Below, piece by piece: positions 8,880-13,452 of a stretch of 64,000 bases of DNA (its first letter is position 1; the number at the start of each line of letters is the position of its first letter). The stretch spans positions 124,001 to 188,000 of the forward strand of contig NZ_CP020946.1 of assembly GCF_002208115.1 (NCBI RefSeq), written 5' to 3'. Position numbers and translations under genes: made by a program. This DNA is from Bdellovibrio bacteriovorus (GTDB lineage Bacteria > Bdellovibrionota > Bdellovibrionia > Bdellovibrionales > Bdellovibrionaceae). The notes beneath the pieces were generated by a model that was not told where the DNA came from, did not search any database, and saw only the letters and a program-made list of their open reading frames with translations.

Positions 8880-9638
8880 ATGAGCATCATCAGCCTGAAA
8901 GACGTGACAGTGGCCTTTGACGACCTGGTGGTGTTGAAGTCCATCAACCTGGAAATTCAGGCGGGCGAATCATTTGTGATTGTCGGACCCAGCGGGCAGG
9001 GTAAAACAACTTTGCTCAAGACCATGTCAGGCTTGGTAAGTCCCCGTAATGGCAAAGTATTTGTTGAACAAAAGGACTGGTCGACGCTAAGCAATAAAGA
9101 GCGTCTTCCGCTGCTTAAAAAGGTCGGGATTCTGTTTCAGAAAAACGCCCTTTTTGATTCCCTGACTTGTGTTCAAAATATCAGCTTTCCGTTGCGCGAA
9201 ACCACAGCGTTGTCGGACTGGGAAATAACAAAAAAAGCAGAGTATTTCTTGGATGCTGTCGGCATTCCTCATGCCCGCGATTTGTATCCGGATGAAATCA
9301 GCGGCGGGATGCAAAAGCGCCTGGGAATCGCCCGGGCACTGGCTTTGGATCCCGAGATCATTTTCTATGATGACCCAACCGCAGGCCTTGATCCGATCAC
9401 TTCGCGCAAGATCATCGATCTGATCATGACGTTGAAAAAAGAAAAAGGATCTACGGTTGTTGCGATCACCAACGACATGAATCGCGCTTTTCAAATGGCG
9501 GATCGAATCGGCATGGTGGTGGATCAGGAACTGCTTATCACCGGAACACCTGAAGAAACAAAGAATCACACCGATCCACGCGTGCATCAGTTCATTCGCG
9601 GATTACTTTCCGGCCCTCTCACCACAGCTAACGTCTAG
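8880..9638 (+). CDS. mlaF: Mla-type ABC transporter ATPase 1, with degenerate catalytic residues
   Basis: A 252-residue ABC ATPase of the MlaF/Mkl group that powers phospholipid movement between membranes with MCE proteins. Walker A is GPSGQGKT (residues 36-43) and the signature is intact, ISGGMQKR (140-147). Two catalytic positions are changed. The Walker B region reads IIFYDDPTAGLDP, so the usual catalytic Glu is Asp165, and the switch-loop His is Asn198 (AITNDMN). These changes are complementary to those in the next gene. It is the first gene of the operon. The ribosome site is weak and the start is taken at ATG 8880 because MSIISLKDVTVAFDDL matches the normal N-terminus. Confidence 0.9.
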   Translation: MSIISLKDVTVAFDDLVVLKSINLEIQAGESFVIVGPSGQGKTTLLKTMSGLVSPRNGKVFVEQKDWSTLSNKERLPLLKKVGILFQKNALFDSLTCVQNISFPLRETTALSDWEITKKAEYFLDAVGIPHARDLYPDEISGGMQKRLGIARALALDPEIIFYDDPTAGLDPITSRKIIDLIMTLKKEKGSTVVAITNDMNRAFQMADRIGMVVDQELLITGTPEETKNHTDPRVHQFIRGLLSGPLTTANV

Positions 9639-9713
9639 TTTGTTAACATCATCGTACACTAGTCGTAGAAATGTCGGATTGACCGTGTGTGAACACGCCT
9701 CTACCATGAGTCA

Positions 9714-10445
9714 GTGATTGAGTTCAAAAACCTCGTGAAAAGATTCGGTACAAGGACAGTACTCAACGGATTAAATCTGAAAATCCGCGAGGGCGAGATC
9801 ATCTTTATTCTGGGGACATCTGGGACAGGAAAATCCGTTCTTTTGAAAAACATCGTGGGTCTGCTGACTCCGGATGAAGGCGAAATCTGGATCGACGATG
9901 AAGAGGTCTCTAAATTCTCTGAAGAACAATATCTTCCTATCCGCAAAAAATGCGGCATGGTCTTTCAGCATCCGGCCCTTTTTGATTCCCTGACAATTTA
10001 CGAAAATGTAGCCTTCGGGCTTCGCCGTCACTATCAACTGTCTGAAGAAGTCATTCAGGCAAAGGTTTCAAAGGCCCTGCGCCTGGTGAATTTGCACGGG
10101 GTGGAACAAAAACGTCCCGGCCAGATTTCTTACGGAATGCAAAAGCGCGTGAGCCTTGCCAGGACCGTGGCCCTTGAACCAAGAATTTTGCTTTTTGATG
10201 AGCCCACCACCGGACTTGATCCCGTCACGACAACGGCGGTGAATCAGTTGATTCTGGATCTTTCCCGAGAATTGAAAACAACTTCCCTGGTGGTCAGCCA
10301 CGATATGAATTGTGCGCTTTCCATTGCCGATCGCATTGTCGTTCTGGACAAGGGAAATATTGTGGCCTTGGGTACTCCGGAAGAATTGAAAAAGTCAAAT
10401 CAGCCACTGGTGAAAGACTTCCTGGCGGAGGTTTTAGAGGCATGA
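9714..10445 (+). CDS. mlaF: Mla-type ABC transporter ATPase 2, with altered signature motif
   Basis: A 243-residue second ATPase of the same operon, starting at a GTG (an overlapping ATG at 9706 is in another frame and stops after three codons). Walker A is GTSGTGKS. The Walker B segment LLFDEPTTGLDP has the catalytic Glu (E163) and the switch His is present (H196 in VVSHDMN). The ABC signature, however, reads ISYGMQKR rather than ISGGMQKR (Tyr140). Together with ATPase 1 this predicts a heterodimer with one normal ATP site and one degenerate site. Its last four bases overlap the start of the first permease (ATGA), implying coupled translation. Confidence 0.9.
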   Translation: MIEFKNLVKRFGTRTVLNGLNLKIREGEIIFILGTSGTGKSVLLKNIVGLLTPDEGEIWIDDEEVSKFSEEQYLPIRKKCGMVFQHPALFDSLTIYENVAFGLRRHYQLSEEVIQAKVSKALRLVNLHGVEQKRPGQISYGMQKRVSLARTVALEPRILLFDEPTTGLDPVTTTAVNQLILDLSRELKTTSLVVSHDMNCALSIADRIVVLDKGNIVALGTPEELKKSNQPLVKDFLAEVLEA

Positions 10446-11221
10446 GTATGATCACCTCGTTCCTCGACCAGGTCGGGGCCACATTGTTATTTCTGCAAAA
10501 AATCCTGCGCACGATGATGTTTAAGAAACTCAAAACGCACGAAATTTTTGAGCAGATTTGGAAGGTCACTGTCGACAGCTTCCCGACCACCGCAATGGCC
10601 GGTTTCTTTGTCGGCGCAATCATGACCGTGCAGTTTGCGATGCAGGTGAAAGAGTTTGGCGCCCTGGGGTATCTGGGGGCTTTGGCCACCAGTGCGACTT
10701 TCCGGGAAGTGGGCCCGCTTTTGATCGCCTTCATGCTCAGCGGGAAAGTCGGGGCGTTTACTTCTGCGGAACTGGGGACCATGAAAGTCACTGAACAGAT
10801 TGATGCCGTTCGCTGCCTGGGCGCAGATCCGATTCAGGAAATCATCGTTCCGCGATTTGTGGGCATCATTGTTTCAAGCTTCTTCCTGCTAGCGGCGGGT
10901 TTGATGATGTCGGTTTTTGGCGGCATGCTGCTGGGTGAGCTTTTTGCCGGTGTGAATTATGAAGAATACCTGCGCCATGTTCCTCTGATTGTCAGTCCGG
11001 TATCTATTTTAAGCGGCCTTGTGAAATGCGGCACTTTTGCGGTGGTGCTGGCGACGATTTGCACCTATCAGGGCTATTCCACAACCGGCGGAGCCAAAGG
11101 TGTGGGCCGCGCGGTGGTGGCAACTGCCGTGACGACGATGATTTGTATTGTGGTGATGGACTGGATGACCAGCTTTATCGGGGACATTATCCTGACGATG
11201 GTGCGGGGGTTTAGACCATGA
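10442..11221 (+). CDS. mlaE: Mla-type permease 1 (MlaE family)
   Basis: A 259-residue inner-membrane permease with about five hydrophobic segments. ATG 10442 is chosen because it overlaps the stop of ATPase 2 as ATGA and is preceded by GGAGG; an in-frame start 44 codons upstream would lie inside the ATPase gene. Conserved MlaE features include FREVGPLLIAFMLSGKVGAF, AELGTMKVTEQIDAV and the ALGADP-like CLGADPIQEIIVPR. It forms the membrane channel of the lipid transporter with permease 2. It overlaps the next gene by four bases. Confidence 0.92.
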   Translation: MSMITSFLDQVGATLLFLQKILRTMMFKKLKTHEIFEQIWKVTVDSFPTTAMAGFFVGAIMTVQFAMQVKEFGALGYLGALATSATFREVGPLLIAFMLSGKVGAFTSAELGTMKVTEQIDAVRCLGADPIQEIIVPRFVGIIVSSFFLLAAGLMMSVFGGMLLGELFAGVNYEEYLRHVPLIVSPVSILSGLVKCGTFAVVLATICTYQGYSTTGGAKGVGRAVVATAVTTMICIVVMDWMTSFIGDIILTMVRGFRP

Positions 11222-11985
11222 TCACATTGATTGCTGAAACCCTGACCGGGGTGTTCACTCCGCCGTTTCGTCGCAAGGAATTCTTCCAGCAGCTGCATTT
11301 TGTGGGCAATAAAAGCCTTTTTATCGTGGTTTTTTGTGTGTGTTTTGCCGCGATTGTCACAATCTTAGAATCCTCTTTCCATATGAAGAGTTTTGCCGCG
11401 ATTGTCACAATCTTAGAATCCTCTTTCCATATGAAGATGGTCATTCAGAATGACTCGATGGTGCCGGGTTTTGCCGCTGTTTTGATTCTGCGGGAACTGG
11501 GGGCGATCGTTACGGCGTTGCTTTTAAGCTCGCGCGTGGGTGCGGGATACGCTTCCGAAGTGGGTTCCATGCAGATCACTGAACAGGTGGATGCGCTAAA
11601 AATGCTGGGGATTGATCCGGTCAATTATCTGGTGGTCCCGCGTTTTTTGGCCTGTGTTCTGGGTGGCATGATGATCACAGTCGTCGCCAATATGGCGTGC
11701 ATCTTTTCGGCGATGGCGGTCAGTCAGTTTTATCTGGGTTACACACCGGGGATGTTTTTGACTTCGATGCAGCGTTTTGTGGATTTCAAGGATCTGATTT
11801 TTGCAATGATCAAGGGTGCGTGTTTCGGAGGCGTGATTCCACTTGTGGCTTGTTACTTTGGATTCCGTTGTCAGCAAGGTGCCGAAGGCGTGGGTCGTGC
11901 GACAACAAACACGGTGGTCGTGTCTTCGATTGCAATCATTGTGATTGATTTTATTTTGTCCTATACTTTTAGTTATCTTTACTAG
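11218..11985 (+). CDS. mlaE: Mla-type permease 2 (MlaE family) carrying an internal 16-residue duplication
   Basis: A 255-residue paralogue of the preceding permease, with RELGAIVTALLLSSRVGAG, SEVGSMQITEQVDAL and MLGIDPVNYLVVPR. Residues 43-58 (FAAIVTILESSFHMKS) are repeated at 59-74 because of an exact 48-bp tandem duplication. Removing one copy gives nearly the same spacing to the RELG motif as in permease 1, so the longer form looks derived. The insert lies in the first membrane segment and might extend or disturb it. Whether the protein still works is not known. It overlaps permease 1 (ATGA) and is followed eight bases later by the MCE gene. Confidence 0.9.
   Translation: MITLIAETLTGVFTPPFRRKEFFQQLHFVGNKSLFIVVFCVCFAAIVTILESSFHMKSFAAIVTILESSFHMKMVIQNDSMVPGFAAVLILRELGAIVTALLLSSRVGAGYASEVGSMQITEQVDALKMLGIDPVNYLVVPRFLACVLGGMMITVVANMACIFSAMAVSQFYLGYTPGMFLTSMQRFVDFKDLIFAMIKGACFGGVIPLVACYFGFRCQQGAEGVGRATTNTVVVSSIAIIVIDFILSYTFSYLY
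11342..11437 (+). repeat. Perfect 48-bp tandem duplication inside the second Mla permease gene
   Basis: Bases 11342-11389 are identical to 11390-11437. The unit is a multiple of three, so the frame is kept and 16 residues are added. Absence of any mismatch suggests the event is recent or under active slippage, or is an assembly error. Confidence 0.97.
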
Positions 11986-11993
11986 GGGAACGT

Positions 11994-12770
11994 ATGAAGG
12001 TTGAAACCAAAGTGGGCCTGTTGGCTCTGGTCTCGGTAGTTCTGATTGTGGTCTTTGCCTACTTCATGGGATTTATTTCCCCGTTCTCCAATTCCAAAGA
12101 ACTGAATGTCATGTACAACTATGCCGGGGGGATTGAAGAAGGTTCTCCTGTGCGTGTGATGGGTATCAAAGTGGGCAAAGTAAAGGCAATCACTTTTGAT
12201 CCGGGATACAAAGCGCCTTCCGGTGAAGAAGTAAAACTTCGCCTGACGATCACTGTCGACAAGAAAGCCTGGACCAGTGTCCGGAAAGATTCCAAATTCT
12301 TCATCAACCTTGCGGGTGTGATTGGGGAAAAGTTTCTGGAAATCTCGCCAGGCTCTGTGGATTCCGGTGAATTTTCCTCCGGCGACTATGTTCGCGGTGA
12401 AGATCCCCCGCGTGTGGATCAATTGATCTCTCAAGGTTACGGTTTGGCCGGCAAAATCATCGAACTTGTGGAAAAAAACGAAGGTTCGGTGACTAATATG
12501 ATCCAGCAACTGAATTCTTTGACGACAAACTTCAATAAAACGCTGGTTCTGCTGGATAAAACCACGAAGAATAAAGAAATGGCCAGACTGCTTGATAATG
12601 CGGTCAAAATCAGCGATGACATGGCATATTTGACAGACAAAATGAGATCGAAGAAAGCGGAAGAGACTTATGAGCTGGTTCATAAGCTTCTTTTCAGGCT
12701 CGAACCGCTGGATGGTCCGGCTTTGAAGAAATTCTTCCAGCAAGAGGGTGTGAAAGCCCGCGTTTTCTAA
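11994..12770 (+). CDS. mlaD: MCE-domain lipid-binding protein (MlaD-like)
   Basis: A 258-residue protein anchored by one N-terminal membrane helix (VGLLALVSVVLIVVFAYFMGF), with the rest in the periplasm. Residues about 38-115 form one MCE domain, recognised from YAGGIEEGSPVRVMGIKVGKV and from LAGVIGEKFLEISPG. The C-terminal third is predicted alpha-helical or coiled coil. MCE proteins form hexameric rings that carry lipids for the MlaEF complex. AGGGGAAC lies before the ATG. A single MCE gene alongside paired ATPases and permeases fits one ring on a heteromeric transporter. Confidence 0.92.
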   Translation: MKVETKVGLLALVSVVLIVVFAYFMGFISPFSNSKELNVMYNYAGGIEEGSPVRVMGIKVGKVKAITFDPGYKAPSGEEVKLRLTITVDKKAWTSVRKDSKFFINLAGVIGEKFLEISPGSVDSGEFSSGDYVRGEDPPRVDQLISQGYGLAGKIIELVEKNEGSVTNMIQQLNSLTTNFNKTLVLLDKTTKNKEMARLLDNAVKISDDMAYLTDKMRSKKAEETYELVHKLLFRLEPLDGPALKKFFQQEGVKARVF

Positions 12771-12798: not shown

Positions 12799-13452
12799 AT
12801 GTTGAAACTTTCTATCCGTCATGCGGTATCCACCGTGGTGTTTTTTGCAGCCCTGCAAACCCAAGCAGCCACGGTGATCCTGGGCGCAGACTCCAACACC
12901 ATCAACACCAAAGCACGCTCTATCGAAACTGAATATGCCCAAGGCATGCGTGATGAGCGCCTGATGAACACTTATTCTTCGACATTAAGCATGCGCCAGC
13001 AGTTGAAAGTCGGCGCCGGTATGTCCGTGGGCGGAGCCCTGGGTACCATGGGCTTCAATTTGGAATTGAACGTGGAAGATGCTGACGGTGCCATCGCCGG
13101 ATTCGGCACGGGTCATGGTTACAACTCTTTCCAACTGGCATGGAAACATGCTTTCGAGGGTGATTATCTGGCTCCTTATTTCACCGCCGGTTATTCCCGC
13201 TGGTATAATTCCAGCGGCAGCACGTCGGCTGCGAATCATTCCGGAATTCTGGACCGTGTTTTGACCACGGAAGAGAAAAAAACCGGCCGATTTGGCACAG
13301 ATTTTGTGAATGCTTCGTTTGGCCTGCAATATAATCAGCTTTCCGGCGACTTCCGAGGTGTCTCGGTTTATGCAGAACTGATGGCCATGACCGAAATTAA
13401 ACGCGGCATGCTAGTTCCGACCGGTACCGTAGGCGCCCTCTACTACTTCTGA
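12799..13452 (+). CDS. Probable outer-membrane beta-barrel protein, last gene of the Mla operon
   Basis: A 217-residue protein with a signal peptide (cut near LQTQA-ATV) and GGGAGG six to seven bases before the ATG. The mature chain alternates polar and hydrophobic residues with many Gly, Tyr and Trp (GYSRWYNSSG, AGFGTGHGYNSFQLAW) and ends in a terminal Phe (VGALYYF), as typical for proteins inserted by the BAM machinery. It follows the MCE gene by 28 bases, so it may be the outer-membrane partner of the lipid-transport system. That partnership is inferred from position only. The precise family is not recognised. Confidence 0.75.
   Translation: MLKLSIRHAVSTVVFFAALQTQAATVILGADSNTINTKARSIETEYAQGMRDERLMNTYSSTLSMRQQLKVGAGMSVGGALGTMGFNLELNVEDADGAIAGFGTGHGYNSFQLAWKHAFEGDYLAPYFTAGYSRWYNSSGSTSAANHSGILDRVLTTEEKKTGRFGTDFVNASFGLQYNQLSGDFRGVSVYAELMAMTEIKRGMLVPTGTVGALYYF

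Follow-up and report, generated by a model that had tools for sequence, protein, structure and literature searches.

Introduction

Why would an operon of the MCE type encode two different ATPases, each altered at motifs that the other keeps? The question is raised by a stretch of 64,000 nucleotides from Bdellovibrio bacteriovorus (contig NZ_CP020946.1, positions 124,001 to 188,000, forward strand), referred to here as the window and taken from a complete genome of 3.77 Mb. MCE transporters move lipids between membranes; the direction of movement, import or export, and the ATP spent on it are disputed. In an ABC transporter, Walker motifs and switch from one subunit meet the signature of its partner to form each ATP site. 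Asymmetry between the two sites is familiar above all from exporters, CFTR and TAP among them. The original prediction, made from the DNA of the window, was that the two ATPases pair as an asymmetric heterodimer with one normal and one fully degenerate site.

A six-gene operon with two ATPases

All six genes of the operon lie on the plus strand, with divergent sucCD-like genes upstream of the first. Their coordinates in the window, and those of the ATPase motifs, are as follows.

8880..9638, plus strand: ATPase 1 (A1), MlaF-like ABC ATPase, 252 residues, with intact SGG, Asp165 and Asn198
9300..9308, plus strand: A1 signature Ser141-Gly142-Gly143, intact (ORF translation)
9372..9374, plus strand: A1 Asp165 at the catalytic Glu position (ORF translation, alignment)
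9471..9473, plus strand: A1 Asn198 at the switch His position (ORF translation, alignment)
9714..10445, plus strand: ATPase 2 (A2), MlaF-like ABC ATPase, GTG start, 243 residues, with Glu163 and His196 intact and the signature altered
10128..10136, plus strand: A2 signature Ser139-Tyr140-Gly141, first Gly replaced by Tyr (ORF translation, alignment)
10200..10202, plus strand: A2 catalytic Glu163, intact (ORF translation)
10299..10301, plus strand: A2 switch His196, intact (ORF translation)
10442..11221, plus strand: permease 1, MlaE family (Pfam MlaE PF02405, E 2.2e-59), overlapping the end of A2
11218..11985, plus strand: permease 2, MlaE family (Pfam MlaE PF02405, E 2.5e-61), overlapping the end of permease 1
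11994..12770, plus strand: MlaD-type protein with a single MCE domain (Pfam MlaD PF02470, E 6.3e-18, residues 35-120 of 258)
12799..13452, plus strand: product of the operon's sixth gene, probably an 8-stranded beta-barrel of the outer membrane (gene order, AlphaFold2, Foldseek)

The reading frames and residues are exactly those of the original prediction (SGG, Asp165 and Asn198 in A1; SYG, Glu163 and His196 in A2), and the ATPase genes are followed, as it said, by two permeases and an MlaD-type MCE protein, as seen from the reading frames and Pfam matches. In the window the gene of A2 overlaps that of permease 1, and the latter that of permease 2. The operon is also present in a named B. bacteriovorus strain (L141), and A1 is 98% identical in a relative's genome (G133). 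Permease 2 of the window carries an exact 48-bp tandem duplication at 11342-11437 in a conserved helix region (16 residues, FAAIVTILESSFHMK repeated with SF). It was not found in the nine relatives compared, the closest ones included, and is either a strain-specific insertion or an assembly artefact.

Set against E. coli MlaF (K-12 genome), in which the corresponding motifs read SGG, DEP and SHD, the substitutions are real: A1 deviates at the catalytic Glu and the switch His, A2 at the first signature Gly, and the remaining ATP-binding motifs are intact, with Walker A, Q-loop and D-loop unaltered in both proteins. The features of a degenerate ATP site are divided between the two, Glu and His being replaced in A1 only and the signature altered in A2 only.

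The system has the features of the MCE family (type VIII), namely MlaE/YrbE permeases, an MCE-domain protein and ATPases of the MlaF/MceG clade. For both A1 and A2 the closest solved ATPases are MlaF (7d06, 6z5u, 7ch8, 6xbd), and MceG is also among the best PDB relatives. True Mla systems are recognised by MlaC and MlaA in the genome and by an MlaD without a long C-terminal region (< about 50 residues) (PMC7790496). The complete genome gave no match to MlaC (PF05494) or MlaA (PF04333), both of which were detected in an E. coli control, and the MlaD-type protein has a C-terminal extension of ~138 residues. A homodimeric MlaF with consensus motifs, another feature of the canonical pathway, is replaced here by two distinct ATPases, each motif-altered. 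The name Mla given by the original prediction needs correcting: with a long MlaD extension and neither MlaA nor MlaC, the system is an MCE transporter and not the canonical Mla pathway.

Predicted pairing of A1 and A2

An A1-A1 dimer would be without the switch His at both sites and an A2-A2 dimer would have the altered signature at both, so that one complete site arises only when A1 pairs with A2. Judged from the sequences, an asymmetric A1-A2 heterodimer with one consensus and one impaired ATP site is very probably the best explanation of these motifs. The original prediction is supported by the complementarity of the substitutions, their conservation and the co-occurrence of the two genes in 141 of 144 genomes; from these we infer the dimer itself.

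On this reading a single lipid ABC transporter of the MCE family would contain A1 and A2 as its unlike nucleotide-binding subunits, together with permease 1, permease 2 and MlaD, and the two ATPases would pair head-to-tail. Site I would bring the Walker A/B motifs and switch of A2 together with the SGG of A1; this consensus site would hydrolyse ATP and drive the cycle. Site II would place the Walker A/B motifs and switch of A1 (no His, and here Asp) opposite the SYG of A2, where hydrolysis would be slow or nil. Site II should still bind ATP because Walker A and Q-loop of A1 are intact, and it probably holds the dimer partly closed between power strokes. The subunit order given here is a presumed one, as is a lipid substrate, which is suggested by the MlaE and MCE families of the membrane components.

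The original prediction had called the second site fully degenerate. Impaired it would be, but the stronger term goes too far, since Walker A, Q-loop, D-loop and the signature Ser and second Gly remain. In other ABC proteins an Asp at the Glu position can still allow slow hydrolysis, and in exporters the Glu-to-Asp sites hydrolyse far below the transport rate and are accompanied by changes in H-loop and signature (PMC7756269).

An AlphaFold2 model of A1 and A2 joined by stop read-through (the two are in one frame) had good domains, with a mean pLDDT of 79.7, and no defined dimer (pTM 0.48); its only long twin-cassette alignment was at 21.6 Å rmsd. The joined fold used five in-frame relatives, a deeper alignment having been dropped in which MAFFT put single A1 rows on the A2 half. 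Outside the phylum, a Cloacimonadota locus (L203, 4821-6417) has a lone MlaF-like ATPase with SFG, directly followed by an MlaD-type gene, with no permease or second ATPase nearby, so an altered signature by itself does not demand a heterodimer.

Conservation of the motif changes

Orthologues were gathered across the phylum and their motifs read locus by locus, for operonic totals of 101 A1 and 99 A2 copies. Every A1 has SGG (101/101) and the switch His is missing in 100 of the 101; every A2 has Tyr or Phe for the first signature Gly (99/99), with Glu kept in 99/99 and His in 98/98. Within the same class, A1 (84 rows from 83 genomes, one genome being counted twice) has SGG and Asp in 84/84 and Asn at the switch in 83/84; the exception, L095, has regained or kept His and is the sole such case among the 101 operonic copies. 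A2 of the same class has SYG in 81/83 and SFG in 2/83, Glu in 83/83 and His in 82/82. Sister-class A1 is more varied outside the signature: all 17 rows have SGG, with Glu in 11 and Asp in 6, and the switch is Asn in 11, Ser in 5, Thr in 1 and His in none. The 16 sister-class A2 rows (12 SYG, 3 SFG, 1 SFS) keep both Glu and His throughout.

Median identity within the families is 51% for A1, the faster-diverging of the two, and 61% for A2. At this divergence the motif columns are held by selection, not by chance. The substitutions are complementary, as had been proposed, and conserved far beyond the strain, in about 100 operons. An orthologous A1-A2 pair with all motifs intact, which would be at odds with the original prediction, was not found among the loci read across the phylum.

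The conserved core of the asymmetry is the loss of the switch His in A1 together with the change from Gly to Tyr or Phe in the A2 signature. The Asp of A1 is a frequent, non-universal addition that is not tied to pairing: Asp-for-Glu was considered as the key change and rejected, since 11 of the 17 sister-class A1 keep Glu and stand-alone A1-like paralogues have Asp with an intact His.

The same counts bear on a heterodimer whose two sites hydrolyse at similar rates, with Asp/Asn and Tyr as tolerated variants, perhaps as in LivF/LivG. Such equal sites would agree with the Glu kept by most sister-class A1, with the replacement of Glu by Asp in some functional contexts, where hydrolysis is slow (PMC7756269), and with the signature Tyr or Phe that is common in LivG and CbiO/EcfA-type proteins. 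The deviations are nevertheless confined to one composite site over about 100 operons, whereas neutral tolerance would be expected to scatter them, and equal sites are on balance unlikely.

Joint presence, linkage and fusion

In the 144 genomes of the class, A1 and A2 are both present in 91, both absent from 50 and found one without the other in 3, so that 141 of 144 are concordant. A1 was scored as present at E 1e-66 or better, leaving out G131 and G257 (best match a stand-alone paralogue) and adding G169 and G205 after locus reading; the cut-off for A2 was E 1e-75. The 50 joint absences were derived by subtraction, 31 of them not named individually. All three discordant genomes involve contig ends or broken assemblies: A1 stands alone on a 3.4-kb contig in G150, and A2 alone beside a contig end in G189 and G258. 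Fisher's test gives p of about 4e-35 for the co-occurrence, a value that is too small since the genomes are kin. Losses occur in several families, however, and one genus (g17, 14 genomes) is entirely without both genes.

At 42 loci the reading frame of A1 overlaps that of A2. In L068 (2139-3848), A2 is fused to permease 1; the shared frame is 570 residues long and its linker about 60-70 residues, and the fusion is a natural sign that both work in one complex. Where A1 has moved away from A2 by 1.7-4 kb or onto another contig (G138, G153, G167, G170, G188), it still keeps Asp and Asn.

The same observations weigh on the view that A1-A1 and A2-A2 homodimers serve as alternative motors for the same or different permease pairs. 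Each protein does resemble the homodimeric MlaF (PMC7790496); in some genomes A1 is separated from A2, and A1-like paralogues also occur on their own. Against this, either homodimer would be impaired at both its sites, and this across about 100 operons; the joint presence and absence described above is unlike that of two independent motors; and no extra MlaE gene lies beside the unlinked A1 copies in the loci read. Separate homodimers are accordingly very improbable.

Ancestry and stand-alone paralogues

In a maximum-likelihood tree of 127 ATPases (quick search, SH-aLRT support only), A1 and the stand-alone paralogues form one clade (97) and A2 a separate one (99), both among the MlaF/MCE ATPases and split from LivF/LivG at 100% SH-aLRT. 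The A1 and A2 clades hold the same classes, and the pair is therefore older than the split of those classes; on this tree the substitution pattern is an ancient one. All motifs are intact in canonical MlaF of other phyla and in this genome's two other well-formed MlaF copies, which lie at MlaE loci. A further MlaE locus of the same genome (L003, 755-1477, near 2111880) encodes an ATPase that deviates at almost all motifs: Asp in the Q-loop, HVPGRIRKL at the signature, LLDDPSVGLGQ, and ISSYD at the switch.

Stand-alone A1-like ATPases were read at 11 loci without an adjoining permease; all of them have Asp and 8 have His. L110 was moved out of this group, being the unlinked A1 of G170, which has Asn and whose A2 operon lies elsewhere. 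The stand-alone paralogues are suggestive of a link between loss of the switch His and A1-A2 pairing, and equally no more than suggestive of a regain of His in unpaired copies; two trees disagree on whether the unpaired paralogues are nested within paired A1 or basal to it, and the contrasts that are independent number only two. One stand-alone MlaF-like ATPase (L075, 1248-2006; G133:C1 near 867762), with Asp for Glu, His kept and no permease, adjoins genes for a P-type ATPase and a small heat-shock protein, and similar copies occur in other genera.

That A1 is a non-catalytic regulatory pseudo-ATPase, bound to the transporter and not an obligate half of a dimer, would suit its lost residues and faster divergence (51% against 61% median identity) but is hardly credible, as Walker A, Q-loop and SGG are kept in every A1 copy, as expected if it completes the A2 site, and A2 with SYG is unable to build a consensus site with itself.

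The sixth gene

The protein encoded at 12799-13452 carries a signal peptide and a C-terminal YYF, and matches no Pfam family. Its gene directly follows MlaD in 37 of the 38 loci where it was found, two sister-class loci included. The AlphaFold2 model (mean pLDDT 83) has eight strands at pLDDT >90, and its best Foldseek matches are the OprF and OmpA barrels (E 6e-6 and 5e-5). From the gene order, the barrel may be the outer-membrane end of the transporter system.

A wider picture can be sketched tentatively, and is open to considerable doubt: a Bdellovibrionota-wide MCE transporter with heteromeric ATPases and permeases, in which one site would hydrolyse and one would hold, and lipid would pass through an elongated MlaD to a dedicated OmpA-like barrel that the sixth gene encodes and that would stand in for MlaC and MlaA. 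For Bdellovibrio, the operon itself points to an ancient envelope lipid system in a predator that has neither MlaA nor MlaC.

Comparison with known systems

Known MCE transporters use two identical ATPases (PMC7790496, PMC9882608), as the original prediction had stated for Mla systems. The MlaFEDB complexes of E. coli, A. baumannii and P. aeruginosa likewise have MlaE permeases and an MlaD-type protein in one operon, but MlaF and MlaE are each present in two identical copies, in the stoichiometry MlaF2E2D6B2 (PMC7790496), whereas the present operon has two distinct ATPases and two distinct permeases and lacks MlaB, and the C-terminal tail of MlaF is absent or short in A1 and A2. The mycobacterial Mce1 system (MceG2, YrbE1A-YrbE1B, Mce1A-F) also has two different permeases, the YrbE1A/YrbE1B heterodimer; its MceG is a homodimer with equal sites that serves several Mce systems (PMC9882608), while the operon of the window has unlike ATPases and a single gene for an MCE protein. 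Two different permeases thus have a precedent in Mce1, and two different ATPases have none in the literature searched: the open-licence papers gave no account of heteromeric MCE ATPases or of a Bdellovibrio Mla system.

In the heterodimeric exporters (TAP1/2, MRPs, CFTR, TmrAB, TM287/288, BmrCD), one subunit likewise has Glu-to-Asp and an H-loop change and its partner the altered signature, so that one site is consensus and the other degenerate (PMC7756269). The altered signature position of A2 matches the degenerate sites reviewed there and also LivG. These exporters are type IV, with membrane and ATPase domains fused; the present system has separate MlaE-type permeases and an MCE protein.

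LivF and LivG are the two ATPases of one transporter, a branched-chain amino-acid importer of the HAAT family. LivF has SGG and Glu with Gln for the switch His, and LivG has S/A-Y-G with Glu and His intact, so the two are complementary as in A1 and A2, also in E. coli; the same arrangement is seen in many phyla (for example L153, L144 and L235). Their ATPase clade, permeases and substrates differ from those here, and A1 and A2 are not members of the LivF or LivG clades in the tree; given that separation (100% SH-aLRT), the likeness is convergent. No discussion of site asymmetry in LivF/LivG was found in the open-licence literature searched. The pattern S[Y/F]G-x-QKR, which misses some true A2 genes, was scanned over 84,980 species genomes: the matches listed are mostly LivG, many beside LivF, and CbiO-like proteins, and the Mla-type ones among them are all from Bdellovibrionota but for the Cloacimonadota locus L203. 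The same pattern occurs in none of the 195 genomes of the phylum around a Myxococcales genome, again with some true A2 missed.

With one consensus and one impaired site, the two sites of such a lipid transporter could be mutated separately, which is impossible in homodimeric MlaF. A family of lipid transporters would have acquired asymmetry of the form shown by LivF/LivG, and the literature searched does not describe it for that family. That LivF and LivG show this layout within one transporter supports the A1-A2 heterodimer and lowers the novelty of the principle: the complementary pattern also occurs in LivF/LivG and in the exporters, and what would be new, against the literature searched, is a heteromeric ATPase in the MCE family.
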